Part shown: positions 19,853-29,650 of the stretch, one piece after another
Position numbering within the stretch: the first letter of the stretch is position 1
Layout: each line of letters starts with the position of its first letter
Source of the DNA: Nitrospirales bacterium
GTDB lineage: Bacteria; Nitrospirota; Nitrospiria; Nitrospirales; UBA8639
Length of the DNA stretch: 43,065 nt
Direction: 5' to 3'
Assembly: GCA_029261235.1 (NCBI GenBank)
Contig: JAJDBS010000134.1
Coordinates: forward strand, 1 to 43,065
Notes under the pieces: model-generated
What the model was told of the DNA's origin: nothing
The model's database searches: none
What the model saw: the letters and a program-made list of their open reading frames with translations, nothing else
Position numbers and translations under genes: made by a program

Positions 19853-21499
19853 TCAATCGGAACTCTCAACGATTTGCTGATAATGGGCATGAACATTCTC
19901 GATGTGATGACGATAGTCTATTTGCAAACCTTCCGCAGTTTGCTTGACGGTTTTTCCTCTCGGGTACCCCATTCTTATCGCGCATTTTGCAAGCTCTTCT
20001 GTTTTTTCAGGAAGAAGATGCGTTTGTCGTTCATGAACCATTTGAATTTTATTTTCGAGGTTTCGTAAGAAGATATATGAGGTCTTGAGTTCCTTTATCG
20101 CTCCAATTTTCAATTTCCCCACACGAAATAATTTCACTAAACCTTTTAATGTTTGACGATCCTTAATACCAGAATACTGATACCCCCATCGAAGCTGAAG
20201 TCCTTGGACAATAAATTCAATTTCACGAATGCCGCCGATCCCTAACTTTACATTGCGTTCGAGTTCTCCTCGACGTTTCATCTTGGATACCATTTGAGAT
20301 CGTAGGGCATGAATCTCCGAAAAAATCTGAGGGGCCATTTCTCTGTTTCCATAGACAAACTTCCCTAACTTTCGGATGAGCGATCGTCCAATCTGGACGT
20401 CACCAGCAATGGGCTTCGCTTTCAAAAACGCCAAACGTTCCCATGTCCGACCACGTGTTTGGTAGTAATGAGAGGCATCTTCTACGGAGCAGGCTAAAGG
20501 CCCAACCTCCCCTTCTGGCCGCAACCGCATATCCACTCGGAACAAGGCCCCTTCAGCCGTTGGGACTGATAAAACGTTTGTCAGCTCTCTTGCTAATGCA
20601 TGAAAATAATCGACGCCTGAGACCGCCTCTTGCCCCTTTCCCGTTTTAGATATTCCCCGGGGAGCCTGAAACACATAAATGAGGTCCACATCCGAACTAT
20701 AGTTCAGTTCCCAACCACCGAGTTTCCCCATAGCCAGGACCGAAAAACCTACACGTTTTTTTGTCCGCACGGATGATGGAGAATCCCAACCACCATATTG
20801 GAGTTGGATGTGATGTTCCACTAATTCATATGCGACTTGAATCACGACTGCCCCTAAATCTGACAGCACGGTATAGGTTTCAATCGGCGTGGCAATACCG
20901 AGAAGATCACGAATCCCTAGGCGAAGCATTTCTCGTCGTTTAAAGCGCCGCAAGGCTTCGCATTTGGCGTCATAGCTTTTGACCCCTTCCTGCATGTTCT
21001 CCAATGTCGCCAAAAGTCTTGCTCCAGTTTGTTTCCGGATGAGCACCCGATCATCTTCAATCCAATAGACCAACAACGGATCTCGAAGTAGGGTTTGAGC
21101 CATCGACGGACTATTGCCAAAGACCGTACTCAGGACGTCAACAATATGCGGAGCTTTCGCGAGATATTGAAATAACTGAAGACGGTGAATCCCAGAATCA
21201 GCAAACCGCTCCCATTCGTTAAGCCCCTGATCAGGGTCAGCCGTTTGAGCTACGCTTCCAAGCAGCATAGGAAGAATTATCGCTAAGGCTTTACGTGTAG
21301 CTGGTTCCCCAGCCATCGCCTGCAGATTACGGTCAGCTTGTTGCCAATTATCCAGGCCATACGCTTGGAGAATACGAGTGACTTCTTTTGAAGCAAGGTC
21401 TGTCGCTAACAGGAGGAGTGTGGGATCGGGCAAATGAGAACGGTTCCCCGTTTTGCTGAAGGTCACTTTTCTTGTCGTGTGTGTTGAAGAAGATTTCAT
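19853..21499 (-). CDS. GlnE-type nucleotidyltransferase, single half (548 aa)
   Basis: GlnE enzymes adenylylate and deadenylylate glutamine synthetase through two related nucleotidyltransferase halves in a single chain of about 950 residues. Here only one half is present. Helical N-terminal sequence leads to GFSVLAMGKLGGWELNYSSDVDLIYVF (256-277), whose Asp270 and Asp272 are the metal-binding pair. Next comes RVDMRLRPEGEVGPLACS and TWERLAFLKAKPIAGD, then the helical GlnD PII-UTase-like segment (KLGIGGIREIEFIVQGLQL). The ELNYSSD form resembles the N-terminal, adenylyl-removing half of proteobacterial GlnE. The gene starts only seven bases from a divergent second half. A near-consensus promoter ends about five bases before the ATG and no ribosome site is present. 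Confidence 0.85.
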   Translation of the reverse strand: MKSSSTHTTRKVTFSKTGNRSHLPDPTLLLLATDLASKEVTRILQAYGLDNWQQADRNLQAMAGEPATRKALAIILPMLLGSVAQTADPDQGLNEWERFADSGIHRLQLFQYLAKAPHIVDVLSTVFGNSPSMAQTLLRDPLLVYWIEDDRVLIRKQTGARLLATLENMQEGVKSYDAKCEALRRFKRREMLRLGIRDLLGIATPIETYTVLSDLGAVVIQVAYELVEHHIQLQYGGWDSPSSVRTKKRVGFSVLAMGKLGGWELNYSSDVDLIYVFQAPRGISKTGKGQEAVSGVDYFHALARELTNVLSVPTAEGALFRVDMRLRPEGEVGPLACSVEDASHYYQTRGRTWERLAFLKAKPIAGDVQIGRSLIRKLGKFVYGNREMAPQIFSEIHALRSQMVSKMKRRGELERNVKLGIGGIREIEFIVQGLQLRWGYQYSGIKDRQTLKGLVKLFRVGKLKIGAIKELKTSYIFLRNLENKIQMVHERQTHLLPEKTEELAKCAIRMGYPRGKTVKQTAEGLQIDYRHHIENVHAHYQQIVESSD

Positions 21500-21510
21500 G
21501 CTGACATGAA

Positions 21511-21539
21511 ATTATACGAGACCGCATCCAACCTTACAA
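21511..21539 (-). promoter_or_regulatory. promoter of the minus-strand GlnE-type gene
   Basis: On the minus strand TTGTAA (21534-21539) and a perfect TATAAT (21511-21516) are spaced by 17 bp. Transcription would begin near 21504, only about five bases before the ATG at 21499. The mRNA would be almost leaderless, which agrees with the absence of a Shine-Dalgarno sequence. Confidence 0.6.
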
Positions 21540-21561
21540 CGCCATTTTTTTTCAGTATACT
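21533..21561 (+). promoter_or_regulatory. promoter of the plus-strand GlnE/ACT gene, sharing its -35 region with the divergent promoter
   Basis: CTTACA (21533-21538) and TATACT (21556-21561) are 17 bp apart. The -35 hexamer overlaps that of the opposite promoter almost base for base, so polymerase can probably occupy only one direction at a time. The predicted start lies at about 21568, next to the ATG at 21569. Confidence 0.5.
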
Positions 21562-21568
21562 CCAGGGT

Positions 21569-23827
21569 ATGAATGTTTCTGCCATGTTTGAACACATCCA
21601 AGCCCATTCGGCACATCTCCCTGAGAAATTGCTTCAAGATTTCCTCTCGCAGATGGATTCAGACTATTTCGAACAATTCCCTCTTGAAACCATTCTTCAA
21701 CATCTGGAGCTCACAGCCAAGCTCACCATTGACTCCCCTTGCTCCGTGGCGATCGACACCCTCCCCTCTCGACAATATCAAATACATTTAGTGGCGTATG
21801 ATTATTTTTCTGAATTTGCCACATTCTGTGGAGTGTTGGCCTCTTTTGGACTCGATATTCGAGAGGCCGCAATTTTCACGTCTCGAGAAATGGCTCCTGG
21901 ATCCAAGCCAAAAGCATTAACGGGGAAAAAACTGAATCCATGGAAAGGTATTTCTCTCAAGCGTCCAACAGGAGGATTGTCTCGAAAGATTGCGGTAGAT
22001 GTGTTTCGAGTCCAAGCCCTACAGAGCTGTTCATTCGATACATCAGCCCAACAAGCATTCCAACACAACATCACATCGTTGCTTCGGTTATTGCAAAACA
22101 ATCACATACGCCAGACTCGGCGAGAGGTAAATCGGCAGCTCATTGAACATCTTGGGACAACACCAAAAAAGACTGGAGATATGCTCCACCCCGTTCATAT
22201 CACATTTTCCAACCCACCATCTTCACCAGATACTGTGCTGGATATTCGGTCAACGGACACACCCGCCTTTCTCTATGCCTTTGCCAATGCGTTAGCCATG
22301 CGTGGCATTTACCTCGTCAAAGCCAAGATTGAAGTCAAAGACGACCAAGTGTTGAACCGACTCTATGTTCGAGGGCGTCACGGACGAACACTCCAGAGCC
22401 AAACGGAGCAGCAAGAGCTACGGACTGCCGCCGCACTCCTGAAAGAGTTCACCTATTATCTCAGTTGGGCACCAGACCCCGGAAAAGCCCTTGATCATTT
22501 CGATCAATTTTTGGATCAGCTTTTCGAGCAACCGCAGAAAGCTTCAACCCTGAGCGTATTAGGACAAGCGTCGACGTTAGAGCATCTCGCTCAGCTGTTT
22601 GGCAGCAGTGATTATCTCTGGGAAGATTTACTTCGACGGCAGCATGACAATCTCTTGCCCATGATGCATCAATTCCAGAAAGGCCCATTGATTCGCTCCA
22701 CACGCATTCTGAGTCATGCTATCGAGAAACGATTACAACAGGCGAAAACGATCCCACGAAAAAAACAGCAACTGAACCAATTCAAAGATGAAGAACTGTT
22801 CAGAATTGATATGCGGCATCTTCTGGAAATTAACACGCTTCCTGATTTTTCCCACGCCCTCACCAACTTGGCTGATGTGATTGTCGCGCAAGCACTCGAG
22901 CAATCCTATCTGGCCATACGACCAAAAACCTCAAAAACCATGACGCCTTTGATGGCCATTTTTGGATTGGGGAAATTGGGTGGCGGAGAATTGGGCTATG
23001 CCTCAGACATTGAAATTCTTTTTGTCTATGCCAACCCTCCATCAGTAAAGACACATCATCGATCCATCATCGCGACTGATTTCTACGAACGATGGTCACA
23101 GGAATTTCTTCAATGGATCGACGCGAAACAAGAAGGCATTTTTCATATTGATACTCGACTTCGTCCCAATGGGGACAAAGGCACATTAGCGAATTCTTTG
23201 GAAGAAATTCAGCAGTATTATTCTGTTCAAGGCAAGGCCGCCCCTTTTGAACGACAGGCCTTCATCAAGCTTCGGTTTATCGCTGGGGATCGTACGTTAG
23301 GAAAAGCGGTTGAAGCTCATCGCAACCAATTTGTCTATGGACCTGACTCTTGGGATTTGCAAACCGCGCTACATCTTCGGCAGCGACAGGTGGCTGAATT
23401 GGTTCAGCCTGGCTCAACTCATGTGAAATACGGAAAGGGAGGATTGTTGGATGTCGAATACATGGTGCAATACCTTCAGCTTCTTCATGGGCATGACAAC
23501 CCATCCCTTCGAACTCCCAACACCCTCGAAGCCATCGAACAATTGTGTCATGCCTCTCTTCTCTCTCTCTCCGAAAGGGAAGCCTTACATGATGATTATC
23601 TGTTTCTTCGCCAATTGATTGATGCCTTACGGATTGTGCGAGGTAATGCCAAAGACTTGGTTCTGCCAACTTCAGGGTCAGACGAAATGGTGTTTCTGGC
23701 TCGTCGGCTGGGAATGAGCTCCACAGATTGGCAGAAAAGCGCTCAAGCCTTTGAGCAGACCACCCTCGAGCGAATGGCAACCATTCATGAACGTTTTCTG
23801 AAGCATTTTTCACAAAAGAAAGCCTGA
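21569..23827 (+). CDS. GlnE-type nucleotidyltransferase with two N-terminal ACT-like domains
   Basis: The 752-residue protein combines parts of two nitrogen-signalling enzymes. Around residues 70-150 and 222-275 it has ACT-like blocks; the second (TVLDIRSTDTPAFLYAFANALAMRGIYLVKAKIEVKDDQVLNRLYVRGRHG) closely follows the GlnD pattern of a glutamine-binding ACT domain. The C-terminal part is a GlnE-type half: AIFGLGKLGGGELGYASDIEILFVY (463-487) with Asp480 and Glu482, FHIDTRLRPNGDKGTLANS, FERQAFIKLRFIAGD, and KYGKGGLLDVEYMVQYLQLLHG. ELGYASD resembles the C-terminal adenylylating half of GlnE, with Asp-x-Glu in place of Asp-x-Asp. An open frame begins at 21506; 21569 was chosen because the upstream part holds the promoter. 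It is convergent with glnA. Confidence 0.82.
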   Translation: MNVSAMFEHIQAHSAHLPEKLLQDFLSQMDSDYFEQFPLETILQHLELTAKLTIDSPCSVAIDTLPSRQYQIHLVAYDYFSEFATFCGVLASFGLDIREAAIFTSREMAPGSKPKALTGKKLNPWKGISLKRPTGGLSRKIAVDVFRVQALQSCSFDTSAQQAFQHNITSLLRLLQNNHIRQTRREVNRQLIEHLGTTPKKTGDMLHPVHITFSNPPSSPDTVLDIRSTDTPAFLYAFANALAMRGIYLVKAKIEVKDDQVLNRLYVRGRHGRTLQSQTEQQELRTAAALLKEFTYYLSWAPDPGKALDHFDQFLDQLFEQPQKASTLSVLGQASTLEHLAQLFGSSDYLWEDLLRRQHDNLLPMMHQFQKGPLIRSTRILSHAIEKRLQQAKTIPRKKQQLNQFKDEELFRIDMRHLLEINTLPDFSHALTNLADVIVAQALEQSYLAIRPKTSKTMTPLMAIFGLGKLGGGELGYASDIEILFVYANPPSVKTHHRSIIATDFYERWSQEFLQWIDAKQEGIFHIDTRLRPNGDKGTLANSLEEIQQYYSVQGKAAPFERQAFIKLRFIAGDRTLGKAVEAHRNQFVYGPDSWDLQTALHLRQRQVAELVQPGSTHVKYGKGGLLDVEYMVQYLQLLHGHDNPSLRTPNTLEAIEQLCHASLLSLSEREALHDDYLFLRQLIDALRIVRGNAKDLVLPTSGSDEMVFLARRLGMSSTDWQKSAQAFEQTTLERMATIHERFLKHFSQKKA

Positions 23828-23904: not shown

Positions 23905-25314
23905 CTACACGTCGTAATACATGAAGAATTCATGAGGATGGGGTCTGAGACGCATCGGATCTACTTCGTTATCTCGTTTATAGGTAATCCACGCTTCAAC
24001 CAAATCCTCAGTGAATACGCCCCCTTTCAAGAGGAATTCATAGTCATTGGCCAAGTTGTCTAACGCTTCCTCTAAACTCGACGGCAATGTTTGAATATTC
24101 CCTAATTCTTCAGGTGCCAAATCATACAGGTTTTTGTCCATTGCTTCGCCTGGATCGATTTTATTTTGGATGCCATCCAATCCTGCCATCAGCATGGCGC
24201 TGAATGCGAGATACATATTGCACGAAGGATCGGGGAATCGGACCTCAATGCGTTTCGCTTTCGGGCTAGGTGAATACATCGGAATTCGAATGCCTGCCGA
24301 TCGGTTACGACTAGAATAGGCGAGCATCACGGGAGCTTCGAATCCTGGCACGAGTCGCTTATATGAATTGGTTGTGGGATTAGTCAACGCCGCTAATGCT
24401 GGCCCATGCTTCAAGATCCCGCCAATATAATACAGGCACTGCTGTGAGACACCAGCGTAATCTTTGCCTGCAAAGTTTGGCTTCCCACCTTTCCAAATAC
24501 TTTGATGCGTATGCATGCCCGTCCCGTTGTCGCCAAATACCGGTTTCGGCATAAATGTAGCGGTTTTTCCATGCCGCCGTGCAACATTACGGACGATGTA
24601 TTTATACATCATCATTTGATCAGCCATTTTGACCAAGGTATCGAAACGAAGATCAATTTCTGCTTGTCCCCCCGTGGCGACTTCATGATGATGCTTTTCA
24701 ACATGAATTCCTGCTTTTTCCATTTCGCGGCACATTTCAGATCGAATATCTTGTTGCGAATCGACCGGGGCTACGGGAAAGTACCCTTCCTTATGACGAG
24801 GACGGGAGCCTAAGTTTCCCCCATCTTTTCCTGAATTCCAAATGCCTTCTTCCGAATCCACGAAGTAATACCCAGAGTTGCCATTTTGGTCAAAGCTCAC
24901 ATGATCAAAGATGAAAAATTCAGCCTCTGGACCCCAGTAAGAAGTATCACCGATTTTCGTACTCTTCAGATATTGTTCGGCTCGCATGGCCACTCCGCGA
25001 GGATCGCGTTCATAGATGGTGCGAGTTATCGGGTCTTGAACATTCCCGATCATGCTCATCGTGGGAATCTCGGTAAATGGATCCATCCGACAGGTATTGG
25101 GATCTGGCACCAGCAACATATCGCTGTTTTCAATGGCCTTCCACCCACGAATGGACGATCCATCGAACCCGGATCCTTCTTTAAATAAGTCCAAGGATAA
25201 TTCGGAAGTAGGAATTGAAAAATGCTGCCATGTTCCAACCAAATCGATAAATTTAAGATCGACCATTTCGACTTTATGCTTCTTGGCAAAATCCAACACT
25301 TCTTTCGGGGTCAT
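23905..25314 (-). CDS. glnA: glutamine synthetase type I
   Basis: The enzyme makes glutamine from glutamate, ammonium and ATP, as a cytosolic dodecamer, and is the entry point of ammonium into biosynthesis. The 469-residue length is that of GSI-beta. Signatures seen include [23 protein letters not shown], the metal-binding [30 protein letters not shown], the ATP-site [21 protein letters not shown], and [40 protein letters not shown]. The adenylylation site NLYDLAPEE has its tyrosine at exactly position 397, as in the enzymes controlled by GlnE. AAGGAGGTAAGTGA precedes the ATG. It is the last gene of the porin-amtB-glnK-amtB-glnA run. Confidence 0.97.
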
Positions 25315-25397: not shown

Positions 25398-26702
25398 TTA
25401 TGAATAGGCTCTCTCGCTATGTTGACTGAGATCCAACCCCATTTGTTCATCTTCAGGAGAGACTCGAAGCCCGATGGTCAGATCGATCACTTTCAGGATA
25501 ATATAAGTTCCCACCACTGAAAACGCTAAGGTTACCAAAGCCAGGAAGACTTGTATACCGAACAATTCTGCATTTCCAAAAAACAACCCTGTGGCACCAA
25601 TCGACGCAAAGAGACCCGTGCCCAAGATTCCCATGAACCCCCCAACGCCATGAATTCCGACCACATCCAATGAGTCGTCATACCCTAATTTCATTTTCCA
25701 CACAACGGCGGCATAGCACACCATCCCAGCGACTAAGCCAAAAATCATGGCGGACATAGGGCCCACAAACCCAGCGGCTGGGGTAATCGTCGCTAAGCCG
25801 GCAATAATACCACTGGCAAGCCCTAACACGGTTGGCTTTCCTCGATGCACCCATTCCGCCACCATCCAACTGATTCCACCTGCGGCGGCGGCAATATGCG
25901 TGGCTACGAAGGCCACGCCGGCGGCGCCATTGGCTCCCATTGCGCTACCCCCGTTAAAGCCAAACCATCCAAACCACAACAGTCCCGTTCCCAATACCGT
26001 CATGGGTAAATTATGAGGGGGCATCGGCTCTTTTCCGAACCCTTTGCGTGGACCTAGCATCATCGCACACACCAAGGCCCCAAACCCTGAACTGATATGA
26101 ATGACTGCTCCTCCAGCCCAGTCTAACGCTCCCATTTGTGAGAGCCACCCGCCACCCCATACCCAATGGGCCAAGGGAGAATAAATACAGAGTGACCAGA
26201 CGACAGAAAAAACAAGTAACGCTTTGAAATTCATCCGTTCGGCCACTGCACCCGTAATGAGGGCGACCGTAATCGCGGCAAACATGAGTTGAAAGATCAT
26301 AAAGACCTGATGCGGAACCGTTGACGCATAATCTGGGCTCGGCTCCATGCCTACGCCCTGTAAGCCCATCCACGCTAAACTCCCAGTCACTCCACCAACA
26401 TCAGGGCCAAAGGCTAAACTATATCCGCAGATCACCCACACCAACGAAATCAAGCATAAGATGACCGCTGTATGCATGATTGTGCCGAGCACATTTTTAC
26501 TACGTACTAAGCCGCCATAAAATAAAGCCAATCCTGGAAGCATCATGCATAAGACCAACGCAGAGGACATCAACATCCAAGCCGTATCGCCCGTATCAAT
26601 CGTTGGCACACTCCCCTCTTGGGCCAAGACCACGGACCAGGCTCCCATACCAATGACCATGCCAAACACAAGGCTGACCTGTATGAGCATTTTGAATATC
26701 AT
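25398..26702 (-). CDS. amtB: ammonium transporter AmtB (first copy, glnA-proximal)
   Basis: Amt proteins are trimeric inner-membrane channels with eleven helices that pass ammonium. The 434-residue protein starts with a cleavable signal-like helix (MIFKMLIQVSLVFGMVIGMGAWSVVLAQEG), then DTAWMLMSSALVLCMMLPGLALFYGGLVRSKNVLGTIMHT. The twin pore histidines are present in GGAVIHISSGFGALV and GIHGVGGFMGILGTGLFAS. The C-terminal tail, ending GLDLSQHSERAYS, is the segment that contacts PII proteins in this family. AAGGAG lies eight bases before the chosen ATG; ATGs further upstream are too close to it or lack it. The gene sits 54 bp downstream of glnK. Confidence 0.95.
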   Translation of the reverse strand: MIFKMLIQVSLVFGMVIGMGAWSVVLAQEGSVPTIDTGDTAWMLMSSALVLCMMLPGLALFYGGLVRSKNVLGTIMHTAVILCLISLVWVICGYSLAFGPDVGGVTGSLAWMGLQGVGMEPSPDYASTVPHQVFMIFQLMFAAITVALITGAVAERMNFKALLVFSVVWSLCIYSPLAHWVWGGGWLSQMGALDWAGGAVIHISSGFGALVCAMMLGPRKGFGKEPMPPHNLPMTVLGTGLLWFGWFGFNGGSAMGANGAAGVAFVATHIAAAAGGISWMVAEWVHRGKPTVLGLASGIIAGLATITPAAGFVGPMSAMIFGLVAGMVCYAAVVWKMKLGYDDSLDVVGIHGVGGFMGILGTGLFASIGATGLFFGNAELFGIQVFLALVTLAFSVVGTYIILKVIDLTIGLRVSPEDEQMGLDLSQHSERAYS

Positions 26703-26756
26703 GATCATGTCTCCTTCAACCCACCACACATGGAATATAAAAAATAAAAAGCCAGC

Positions 26757-27131
<375 letters not shown>

Positions 27132-27212
27132 TTACCCGCAACTCGCGTGACCTGTTCATGCTGCTCAATTCTTACCGTCACATCACATTGACTAGGACCT
27201 AATTTCTAGACA

Positions 27213-28514
27213 TCAGCCATAGGCTCGTTCGCTATGCTGGGTGAGATCTAAGCCAATGACTTCCTCTTCTTTACTCACACGCAATCCCACCACACCATCC
27301 ACGATTTTCAGAATCACATATGTCCCAACACCGGCAAAAATCCAGGTTGCGCCCACGCCAACAGCCTGAATTCCCACCTGGCCAGGATTACCAAAAAAGA
27401 GTCCGGTGCCTCCACCAACACTCGCAAATAATCCTGTGGCCAAAGCCCCCCATGTTCCACCAATGCCATGAATACCCAGCACATCCAAGGCATCATCATA
27501 GCCCATCTTATTTTTCAAAAAGACACCGAGATAACACACGACTCCACCACCCAACCCAATCAGGATGGCCGAGACAGGACCGACAAATCCGGCCGCTGGC
27601 GTAATAGCCACCAACCCAGCGACCGCTCCGCTGGCCGCCCCAAGTATGGTGGGATTTCCGCGATATCCCCATTCCACAGACAACCAGGCCAAGGCCCCTG
27701 CTGCTGCGGCAACTTGGGTCGCCACAAACGCACTTGCCGCGATGCCATCAGCCGCTAACGCGCTCCCGGCATTAAAGCCAAACCATCCCACCCACAATAA
27801 CCCGGCTCCAATCACGGTAAATGGCAGGTTATGGGGACTCATATTATCCGTCCCATGCCCACGACGTTTTCCTAACACAAGGGCACAGGTTAACGCGGCC
27901 ACACCCGAACTAATATGAACAACGGTTCCCCCAGCAAAATCTAATTCGCCTAGACCCGCCAACCAGCCTCCCCCCCACACCCAATGCGCTAAGGGCGCAT
28001 AAATCAGCGTCACCCAGAGAGTCGCAAATAACACAAAAGCCGAAAACTTCATCCGTTCAGCAATGGCCCCGCTTATCAAAGCCACAGTAATGGCGGCAAA
28101 CATCAACTGAAAGACCATGAAGGCCATATGAGGAATGGTGGAGCCTTCTGCCGGTTCAGGACCAACTCCTGAAAGTCCCACCAGATCCAAACCTCCAACA
28201 ATTCCGCCAACATCTGGACCGAACGCCAGGCTATACCCCCACAACACCCACACGACGCTGACAATGCAAATCGAAATAAAACTATGCATCATCGTACTCA
28301 ACACATTTTTACTTCGTACCATTCCCCCATAAAACAACGCCAAGCCAGGAACAATCATCGCAAGCACAAGAGCTGATGAGGTCAAGACCCAAGCAGTATC
28401 ACCGGCATTTATCGTTGAATCTTCTTGTGCGAATACAGAACTCATTGAAAAGACTGACAAAATACAGACACAGAGAAAACATACACCTATCTTGTTAAAT
28501 TTATCGATGAACAT
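27213..28514 (-). CDS. amtB: ammonium transporter AmtB (second copy)
   Basis: This 433-residue second Amt channel is clearly paralogous to the glnA-proximal copy. A signal-like N terminus (VCFLCVCILSVFSMSSVFAQED) is followed by DTAWVLTSSALVLAMIVPGLALFYGGMVRSKNVLSTMMHS. The pore histidines are kept (GTVVHISSGVAALT, GIHGIGGTWGALATGLFAS) and the tail ends GLDLTQHSERAYG. AGGAGAAAATA precedes the ATG. It is separated from glnK by 117 bp and from the upstream porin by 26 bp. The two copies diverge enough that different affinity or regulation is possible, but the sequence does not show which. Confidence 0.95.
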   Translation of the reverse strand: MFIDKFNKIGVCFLCVCILSVFSMSSVFAQEDSTINAGDTAWVLTSSALVLAMIVPGLALFYGGMVRSKNVLSTMMHSFISICIVSVVWVLWGYSLAFGPDVGGIVGGLDLVGLSGVGPEPAEGSTIPHMAFMVFQLMFAAITVALISGAIAERMKFSAFVLFATLWVTLIYAPLAHWVWGGGWLAGLGELDFAGGTVVHISSGVAALTCALVLGKRRGHGTDNMSPHNLPFTVIGAGLLWVGWFGFNAGSALAADGIAASAFVATQVAAAAGALAWLSVEWGYRGNPTILGAASGAVAGLVAITPAAGFVGPVSAILIGLGGGVVCYLGVFLKNKMGYDDALDVLGIHGIGGTWGALATGLFASVGGGTGLFFGNPGQVGIQAVGVGATWIFAGVGTYVILKIVDGVVGLRVSKEEEVIGLDLTQHSERAYG

Positions 28515-28540: not shown

Positions 28541-29650
28541 TTAGAAGAGGAATATCACTTCAGTCGCTAAGGTCTCTTGATGGTTCGCTGCACGACCGCC
28601 GTACTGAAATGAATTTTGGCTAGATTTATCGTAACGAAATTCTAGGCGCGTAATTAAGGACGGAGTCAGTTTATACTGTGCGGTTGCGGTCCCTTCCCAA
28701 AGCTTTTGATCATCTCCAGTCAAGAATCCATCGGAATCTTTAAACCATTCCATACGAAACCGTGCACCCCACTGATCATCAAAGTCATGGATGACATACG
28801 CTGCAACTCCGTGCCATTGGACATCCATTCCTGCCTGCGCATTCTCCTGAGAAGCATGATAGCCTTCGAGAACAAAGGAGGTTTGATCCGAAGCCTGTAC
28901 AGTGACAATCCCACCAAGCTGAACCAGATCGGTATTTTTGGCACCCAATGCGCCTTCTGGCCCCCAGAATCCGAAGAGCGACACGCTCAACCAATCCATC
29001 GGAGTCAGCCCTAACAAGGCTTCAATAGACTTACTACGATTGGTATCGGATCGTGCACCATTCCACGCATTGATCAGACCAACAGACAAGGCCACCATGT
29101 CATTAAACTCATACGAAGCCCGAATACCCGTTGTGGTAAAGGGCTCGCCTAAACCAAAAAGCCATGAACGAGAGAAATTTGGGTTCAGCGGACTTTCAAT
29201 GACTTCATAGCCAATCAAGGTATTCATCCGACCAATTCGTAGATCGAGACCATTCCCAATGGGTGCGATATATTGGACGTACGCTTCCTGATAATCAAAA
29301 TCATCTGTGCCAGATCCCCCGGTGAGCTTTGCGTCTTCACCAAAATTTAATTTAATGCGAAATCCCGCACGATCAGCATGAGTGCCGCCTGACTTGCCTT
29401 CTTTCTCAAAGACGAGTTGAGCCATATGCGGCCGAAAGGAATTGGCATCGATATCAAAAATTCTATTGGCATTCCTTTGTGAATTTGGATTATTGAAATT
29501 CTGGGTATAGGACGCTTCGACATACCCATACAGTTTAAAGTCTTCTTTGGTTAACACTGAGGCCACACTAACGTTGATGAACCCCAAAAAGAGTAGACCT
29601 GCTAGCAGCACTACCGAAGCGACGTTTCTCAGATACCGCATCATATTCAT
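28541..29650 (-). CDS. outer-membrane porin, BBP2-type beta-barrel
   Basis: This 369-residue exported protein has a signal peptide (MNMMRYLRNVASVVLLAGLLFLGFINVSVAS). The mature protein starts with a typical porin-2 opening (KLYGYVEASYTQNFNNPN, then NANRIFDIDANSFRPHMAQLVFEK), followed by FRIKLNFGEDA, FDYQEAYVQYIAPIGNGLDLRIGRMNTLIGYEVIESPLNPNFSRSWLFG and many amphipathic strands, ending with an aromatic C-terminal strand (ETLATEVIFLF). It is expected to be a general or small-solute channel. As first gene of the ammonium cluster, it may provide outer-membrane entry for the Amt channels, which is inference. The ATG follows CGGAGGAAAGT. Confidence 0.85.
   Translation of the reverse strand: MNMMRYLRNVASVVLLAGLLFLGFINVSVASVLTKEDFKLYGYVEASYTQNFNNPNSQRNANRIFDIDANSFRPHMAQLVFEKEGKSGGTHADRAGFRIKLNFGEDAKLTGGSGTDDFDYQEAYVQYIAPIGNGLDLRIGRMNTLIGYEVIESPLNPNFSRSWLFGLGEPFTTTGIRASYEFNDMVALSVGLINAWNGARSDTNRSKSIEALLGLTPMDWLSVSLFGFWGPEGALGAKNTDLVQLGGIVTVQASDQTSFVLEGYHASQENAQAGMDVQWHGVAAYVIHDFDDQWGARFRMEWFKDSDGFLTGDDQKLWEGTATAQYKLTPSLITRLEFRYDKSSQNSFQYGGRAANHQETLATEVIFLF

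Follow-up and report, generated by a model that had tools for sequence, protein, structure and literature searches.

Glutamine synthetase is under the control of GlnE, the PII protein, and GlnD, which form the textbook two-cycle cascade. To our knowledge, no glutamine site has been located on the adenylylating half of classical GlnE. In PMC12409994 and PMC8097203, the N-terminal half of Escherichia coli GlnE is described as removing AMP and the C-terminal half as adding it. The ACT domains of GlnD are considered to be its glutamine sensors in PMC3173338, and GlnD is said to hold a single glutamine site in PMC4285133. Here, we analyze a GlnE that is split between two genes of a Nitrospirales bacterium, one of them carrying GlnD-type ACT domains. 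The window, that is, the whole 43,065-nt stretch of DNA analyzed, is contig JAJDBS010000134.1 of assembly GCA_029261235.1, which is 82.8% complete and consists of 264 contigs.

The split GlnE probably comprises a glutamine-sensing adenylyltransferase and a separate AMP-removing partner; the ligand, the direction of its effect, and the control of the partner by PII are what we infer. The ACT-bearing GlnE as such is a real and widely conserved GlnE variant, present across many phyla.

The divergent GlnE pair and its ACT cassette

Two open reading frames (ORFs) face each other head to head, at 19853-21499 on the minus strand (548 aa) and at 21506-23827 on the plus strand (773 aa). The GlnE halves thus lie in two genes on opposite strands and not in one polypeptide, and each carries a GlnE-type nucleotidyltransferase domain (PF03710), as the sequence-only reading of this DNA had supposed. 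The features of the pair, with its adenylyl-removing (AR) and adenylyltransferase (AT) halves, are as follows.

19853..21499, minus strand: predicted AR half, GlnE N-type (AMP-removing), 548 aa (PF03710 206.1 bits, PF08335, tree)
20384..21133, minus strand: nucleotidyltransferase core of the AR half, with SDVD and VDMRLRP motifs and D270, D272, D323
21500..21568: probable intergenic region with promoter-like hexamers overlapping on both strands (consensus matches only)
21506..23827, plus strand: predicted ACT-AT half, GlnE C-type (AMP-adding), with an N-terminal GlnD-type ACT cassette, 773 aa as the longest ORF
21740..22096, plus strand: ACT1, residues 79-197 (AlphaFold2, hhalign to GlnD, conservation)
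22196..22468, plus strand: ACT2, residues 231-321, with the D251-T-P-A-F-L-Y motif (AlphaFold2, hhalign, conservation)
22580..23314, plus strand: nucleotidyltransferase core of the AT half, with D501, E503 (SDIE), and D549
23417..23797, plus strand: helical GlnD_UR_UTase-type domain of the AT half (PF08335, Pfam)

The minus-strand protein scores 206.1 bits and the plus-strand protein 149.7 bits with PF03710 (cut-off 24), and both match PF08335. With PRK11072, the NCBIfam model of bifunctional GlnE, they score 311.9 and 202.1 bits, below the cut-off of 487, as expected for halves. Neither a third PF03710 domain nor a full-length GlnE, which the sequence-only reading had considered as a possible substitute, was found elsewhere in the 82.8% complete assembly.

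The roles of the halves were assigned from a maximum-likelihood tree of 60 halves, taken from the 90 rows of a quick tree (support is given as ultrafast bootstrap/Shimodaira-Hasegawa-like approximate likelihood-ratio test, SH-aLRT). In it, the minus-strand protein falls in one group with the canonical GlnE N-halves (29 rows, 100/98). The halves that bear ACT domains make up a single clade (20 rows, 100/100), which is placed among C-type halves; its sister (97/86) is the C-half of L082, a canonical GlnE of the same phylum. Both the N-type clade (98) and the ACT clade (100) reappear in the quick tree, whose N-type clade takes in all 18 non-ACT partner halves of the set. Given this placement and the roles of the E. 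coli halves, the minus-strand protein is, as judged from sequence, the AR half and the plus-strand protein the AT half, which bears out the earlier assignment. The reversed roles were considered as well and are not supported by the trees. Searches with PDB sequences do not by themselves assign the roles, because 1v4a outscores 3k7d for either half. Among structures, the model of the whole plus-strand protein matches both the N- and C-domains of E. coli GlnE in Foldseek.

The two halves differ in their catalytic signature. The window AR half keeps all catalytic acids, namely SDxD and the third Asp; the AT half has SDxE and the third Asp. The second acid (E503 in the window) is Glu in 59/59 ACT halves, as opposed to SDxD in 58/58 non-ACT GlnE halves, and the third acid is Asp in all 59 ACT halves. 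The presumed target residue is also in place: the neighboring GlnA carries Tyr397, as noted earlier, and Tyr was found in 40/40 aligned GlnA, the count covering the GlnA genes that lie on the fetched loci.

The N-terminal part of the plus-strand protein resembles the C-terminus of GlnD. The GlnD model TIGR01693 matches residues 39-308 (E 1.1e-17), the match starting only at position 616 of the 850 in the model (63.6 bits versus a cut-off of 519.4), and the best stretch with the GlnD model PRK05092 is 162-308 (E 1.8e-21). For profile comparison, cassettes from 58 of 71 references were aligned with that of the window (59 rows), and one more was then dropped as too short; the resulting 58 cassettes match 22 GlnD C-termini over 192 columns with a probability of 99.9 and E 5e-32 in hhalign. 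The linker ahead of ACT1 is likewise similar to that of GlnD, as judged by comparing the alignments by eye. In the AlphaFold2 model, with a mean predicted local distance difference test score (pLDDT) of 88.7 for the whole protein and 88.6 for the cassette, two ferredoxin-like repeats span residues ~79-197 and ~231-321; a fold of this kind had been anticipated. Foldseek places the large mycobacterial glutamate dehydrogenase in the top rows for the cassette (E 2.4e-4), though with poor superposition, and also retrieves, with modest E-values, the regulatory domain of threonine dehydratase (probability 1.00, E 7.9e-3) and the ACT-like domain of GL3 (probability 1.00, TM score 0.76, E 8.4e-3). Sequence profiles and the model together indicate that this part is the C-terminal sensor cassette of GlnD, that is, a linker and two ACT domains, so that the two GlnD-type ACT blocks seen earlier on the adenylylating half stand. 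Residue D99 of ACT1 is conserved in 59/59 ACT halves.

In a tree of 60 rows (38 of the 58 cassettes and 22 of GlnD, with L276 left out), the cassettes of GlnE and those of GlnD fall on either side of one branch (support 99). This topology fits one old transfer from GlnD to GlnE. A recent capture of the ACT domains from the genome's own GlnD is not supported, the two kinds of cassette being parted by that branch.

The plus-strand gene may in fact start at the ATG at 21569 (Met22), yielding a protein of 752 aa; in that case approximately 69 bp, and not 6, would separate the two genes. Among close relatives, the longest ORFs of L037, L038, L100, and L102 start at the equivalent of this ATG or one codon off it, and those of L039 and L101 start further upstream. 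Residues 1-13 of the longest ORF are modeled with pLDDT <50. Two promoter-like consensus pairs, where 0.5 are expected, overlap between the genes, at 21511-21539 on the minus and 21533-21561 on the plus strand. These two overlapping consensus matches are the whole basis for the competing divergent promoters that the sequence-only reading had put forward as a possibility.

Distribution and domain layouts of the ACT-bearing GlnE

We scanned 59 Nitrospirales genomes, including that of the window, and then 11 further genomes with a linked pair; named records in this set read Nitrospirales, Nitrospira, or Nitrospirae. Among the 59, 45 carry the two genes on a single contig; the ACT-AT half only was found in three, and neither half in 11. 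All contig-linked pairs of the order are head to head (56/56, counted by hand from coordinates), several of them in single-contig genomes. The loci of 40 relatives, out of 44 that have a linked pair, were fetched: the genes are divergent in 40/40, with a median gap of 57 bp between the longest ORFs, and glnA was found on 22 of the 40 stretches. Near the pair of Nitrospira sp. RSF12 (L161, about 26-1270), there are two short extra AR-like matches of 50 and 44 bits, and a second AR-like match occurs on contig C117 of G040.

Elsewhere in the phylum, GlnE was found in 52 sampled genomes, mostly as a single frame. The 20 such GlnE that were fetched are 928-1,308 aa long and encode the two halves in a single frame, although for L095 and L091 the second half was recognized by a shorter match; a profile search found no ACT cassette in any of the 20.

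The named-genome scan covered the best 80 of 587 relatives, 42 of which are outside Nitrospirota by title (L116, titled Nitrospinota, is counted with Nitrospirales). Among these 42, the order ACT-AT-AR in one frame is the most frequent (27, two of them with a weak AR piece only). The order AR-ACT-AT, again in one frame, was found in five (L131, L142, L144, L163, L172), which belong to Planctomycetota except for one Verrucomicrobia record. Two more loci, L127 and L130, have tandem genes, and eight have ACT-AT without AR on the stretch. Genes for GlnA or PII/AmtB are present on 20 of the 42 loci. In all layouts seen, that is, divergent, tandem, AR-ACT-AT, and ACT-AT-AR, the ACT domains sit on the same (AT) half.

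Ten genomes were searched whole for the second GlnE half. It lies on another contig in G163, G166, and G170, adjoins the first half in G167 and G168, and was not found in G164, G165, G169, G171, and G172, all of which are metagenome-assembled genomes (MAGs). For instance, the Glassbacteria and Phycisphaerales MAGs G164 and G165 have an ACT-AT gene (L132 and L157) and no second half that we could find. The lone ACT-AT gene in these two genomes may mean that adenylylation is one-way, or that the MAG has a gap.

Next to the pair, the window contains further genes of nitrogen control.

23905..25314, minus strand: glnA, type I glutamine synthetase, the presumed substrate (TIGR00653, 686 bits)
24124-24126, minus strand: Tyr397 codon of glnA
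25398..26729, minus strand: amtB-like ammonium transporter (ORF; neighbor in related loci)
26757..27131, minus strand: glnK (PII), with the Tyr51-equivalent at residue 63 of the long ORF (Pfam, alignment)
27213..28514, minus strand: second amtB-like transporter (ORF; neighbor in related loci)

We take the ORFs at 25398..26729 and 27213..28514 to be amtB-like, following the sequence-only reading. The position of glnK between two such genes (25398-28514), together with glnA, is kept in many of the fetched relatives. A 369-aa ORF (28541-29650), presumably a beta-barrel porin by its appearance only, adjoins the amtB-glnK-amtB-glnA cluster, and its relatives occur near the cluster in 18 of the 40 fetched Nitrospirales loci.

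GlnD and PII in genomes with the ACT-bearing GlnE

The sequence-only reading proposed that the adenylylating half senses glutamine directly, bypassing GlnD. For the window genome this did not stand, but it fits other lineages, where GlnD and the uridylylated Tyr51 of PII are missing together. The absence of GlnD from the window genome is rejected, as a full-length GlnD (709.5 bits) was found there, and GlnK retains the Tyr51-equivalent; since both a full GlnD and a uridylylatable GlnK are present, GlnD is not bypassed in this genome for want of it.

Outside Nitrospirota, GlnD scores over the cut-off in 15 of 41 genomes with the ACT-bearing GlnE and does not in 26. The PII residue was considered at 81 loci in three sets, 63 of them readable and 18 without alignment at the residue; the latter comprise 15 of 30 loci from Nitrospirales, most of them weaker paralogs resembling PII, and two of 25 and one of 26 in the other two sets. 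Tyr51 is present in 25/25 PII sequences of the GlnD-bearing non-Nitrospirota genomes. It is present in 2/23 sequences from 17 of the GlnD-less genomes, both in odd contexts and in one genome; no PII match was found in seven of the 26.

The same co-absence is seen within Spirochaetota, for which 100 genomes at >=95% completeness, that is, at least 95%, were requested, G182 among them. None of the 100 has a match over the GlnD cut-off. In four genomes (G222, G227, G245, G265), a protein of ~880 aa matches GlnD along its length and scores 450-459 bits, short of the curated cut-off; the GlnD-like matches in another three are weaker or broken. In six genomes, the ACT domains lie on a frame of 1,243-1,319 aa and there is no long GlnD-like match. 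Tyr51 was found in 10/10 PII sequences of the four GlnD-like genomes versus 1/9 in the genomes that have the ACT-bearing GlnE and no GlnD (19 of 20 loci readable; G182 has no PII match).

In Nitrospirales, eight genomes of one genus (~99% complete) keep the pair and have no GlnD at E 1e-60, and GlnD is present in 16 of the 24 relatives sampled for this comparison. In the five of the eight for which the PII region was fetched (L267, L268, L269, L270, L273), PII directly precedes glnA with no GlnD between them, and the order in G053 (L271) is PII-GlnD-glnA. Judged by gene order, GlnD was cleanly lost in this lineage.

Proposed regulation and comparison with described systems

We propose that the plus-strand protein is the AMP-adding half placed behind a GlnD-type linker and two-ACT cassette, and that the minus-strand protein is the deadenylylating half. 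Binding of glutamine to the cassette would turn on AMP transfer to Tyr397 of GlnA when nitrogen is plentiful, and the separate AR half would remove AMP, most likely under the control of PII or PII-UMP as in E. coli. Because GlnD and a uridylylatable PII remain in the window genome, glutamine could enter there at two points: the AR half would be reached through GlnD acting on PII, the AT half through its ACT cassette. Where GlnD and Tyr51 of PII are both lacking, as in spirochaetes and others, the GlnD-type glutamine input that is left would be the cassette.

With slightly less than even confidence, we suggest the following history. A single ancient transfer put the glutamine-sensing GlnD cassette on the adenylylating half of GlnE and so created a self-contained adenylyltransferase that senses glutamine; the PII-uridylylation limb then became dispensable, and GlnD and Tyr51 were lost in many lineages, reducing the two-cycle cascade to one cycle. 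The Nitrospirales would represent a state with both inputs, acting on two separate antagonists.

Several observations weigh against the proposed glutamine sensing or this history. The Pfam ACT families give no match to the plus-strand protein at E<=1, the likeness being seen only through GlnD profiles; of the profile searches suggested earlier, those for GlnE and GlnD_UR_UTase (PF08335) were positive in both proteins, that for Pfam ACT was negative, and the GlnD models matched with their ACT end. A glycine of the ACT beta1-alpha1 loop is reported, in PMC3173338, to be nearly invariant and to lie at the serine site of phosphoglycerate dehydrogenase (PGDH). It is replaced in the window (S102 in ACT1, A254 in ACT2) and is Gly in only 23/59 family members in ACT1 and 12/59 in ACT2, so that ligand binding may differ or be lost. 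The quick 90-row tree does not settle the place of the ACT clade among the canonical C-halves; it groups L082 with other canonical C-halves (82). The GlnD-less Nitrospirales keep Tyr51 (7/7 read among the eight genomes), and therefore the uridylylation limb is not fully lost in them. Nor is the absence of GlnD unique to the ACT-bearing GlnE: at E 1e-60, 9/52 canonical-GlnE genomes of the phylum likewise have none (43/52 have it, counted by hand). Finally, the GlnD and PII counts are raw, with shared ancestry uncorrected, and many of the genomes are MAGs.

An alternative that we regard as unlikely is the following: the cassette is a genuine ACT cassette that senses another amino acid, or serves only in dimerization or in docking of PII or another partner, with glutamine acting through GlnD and PII. 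The replaced loop glycines agree with it, as do the presence of GlnD and Tyr51 in the window genome and the fact that ACT folds matching the cassette bind other amino acids. However, the cassette is of GlnD's own kind, linker included, the cassettes of GlnE form one clade (99), and they persist where GlnD and Tyr51 are missing.

Somewhat more doubtful is a purely structural split, in which the separate proteins come together again as an ordinary two-headed GlnE and the separation has no functional effect. Covalent linkage does look optional, because the halves occur fused in either order in other phyla, but such a split leaves both the ACT cassette and the fixed SDxE of the AT half unexplained. 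There is a small chance that the ACT half is a catalytically altered or inactive sensor half and no adenylyltransferase of glutamine synthetase, as its second metal ligand is Glu in all members and Asp in all non-ACT halves; yet the superfamily motif permits Asp or Glu at this position, according to PMC8097203, the three acids are invariant within the family, and the ACT half sits with the C-type halves in the tree. That one GlnE gene was broken up by an assembly error or a frameshift, as the fragmented assembly might suggest, deserves practically no credence given the opposite strands, and is ruled out by the same layout in all 56 linked pairs, several of them in single-contig genomes.

If glutamine sensing by the ACT-bearing half is true, it would put a glutamine site on the adenylylating half, and the ACT-bearing GlnE, whose genomes often have neither GlnD nor the PII tyrosine, would exert the same control through simpler wiring. 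The split pair also has a practical side, since the opposing activities could be purified and measured apart without engineering. The pair bears on ammonium handling in Nitrospirales, an order that includes nitrifiers, and it belongs to a widespread family, which goes beyond what the sequence-only reading saw. In the open-access literature searched, which lacks most subscription papers, no description of the ACT-bearing GlnE and no paper combining 'GlnE' and 'ACT domain' were found.

Compared with described systems, the pair shares with E. coli GlnE (1v4a, 3k7d) both homologous nucleotidyltransferase halves and the target Tyr397 of GlnA. Unlike the window pair, E. coli GlnE is a single AR-AT chain with no ACT cassette by profile at E 1e-5; the window has two opposed genes, the ACT domains on the AT half, and SDxE instead of SDxD. 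With GlnD, the plus-strand protein shares the homologous linker and two ACT domains (hhalign E 5e-32). The architecture of GlnD is nucleotidyltransferase-HD-ACT-ACT, whereas in the plus-strand protein ACT-ACT precedes a GlnE-type AT half, and the GlnD models match its ACT end only, not the full set of uridylyltransferase (UTase), HD, and two ACT domains. The closest counterparts are the fused ACT-bearing GlnE of Spirochaetota, Planctomycetota, Lentisphaerota, Fibrobacterota, and others, which have the same ACT-AT module, an N-type AR half, and SDxE, but are single chains, with two-half frames of 1,165-1,345 aa in two domain orders. Separate ACT-AT and AR genes are found in Nitrospirales, in tandem at loci L127 and L130, and in a small number of genomes whose two halves lie on different contigs.

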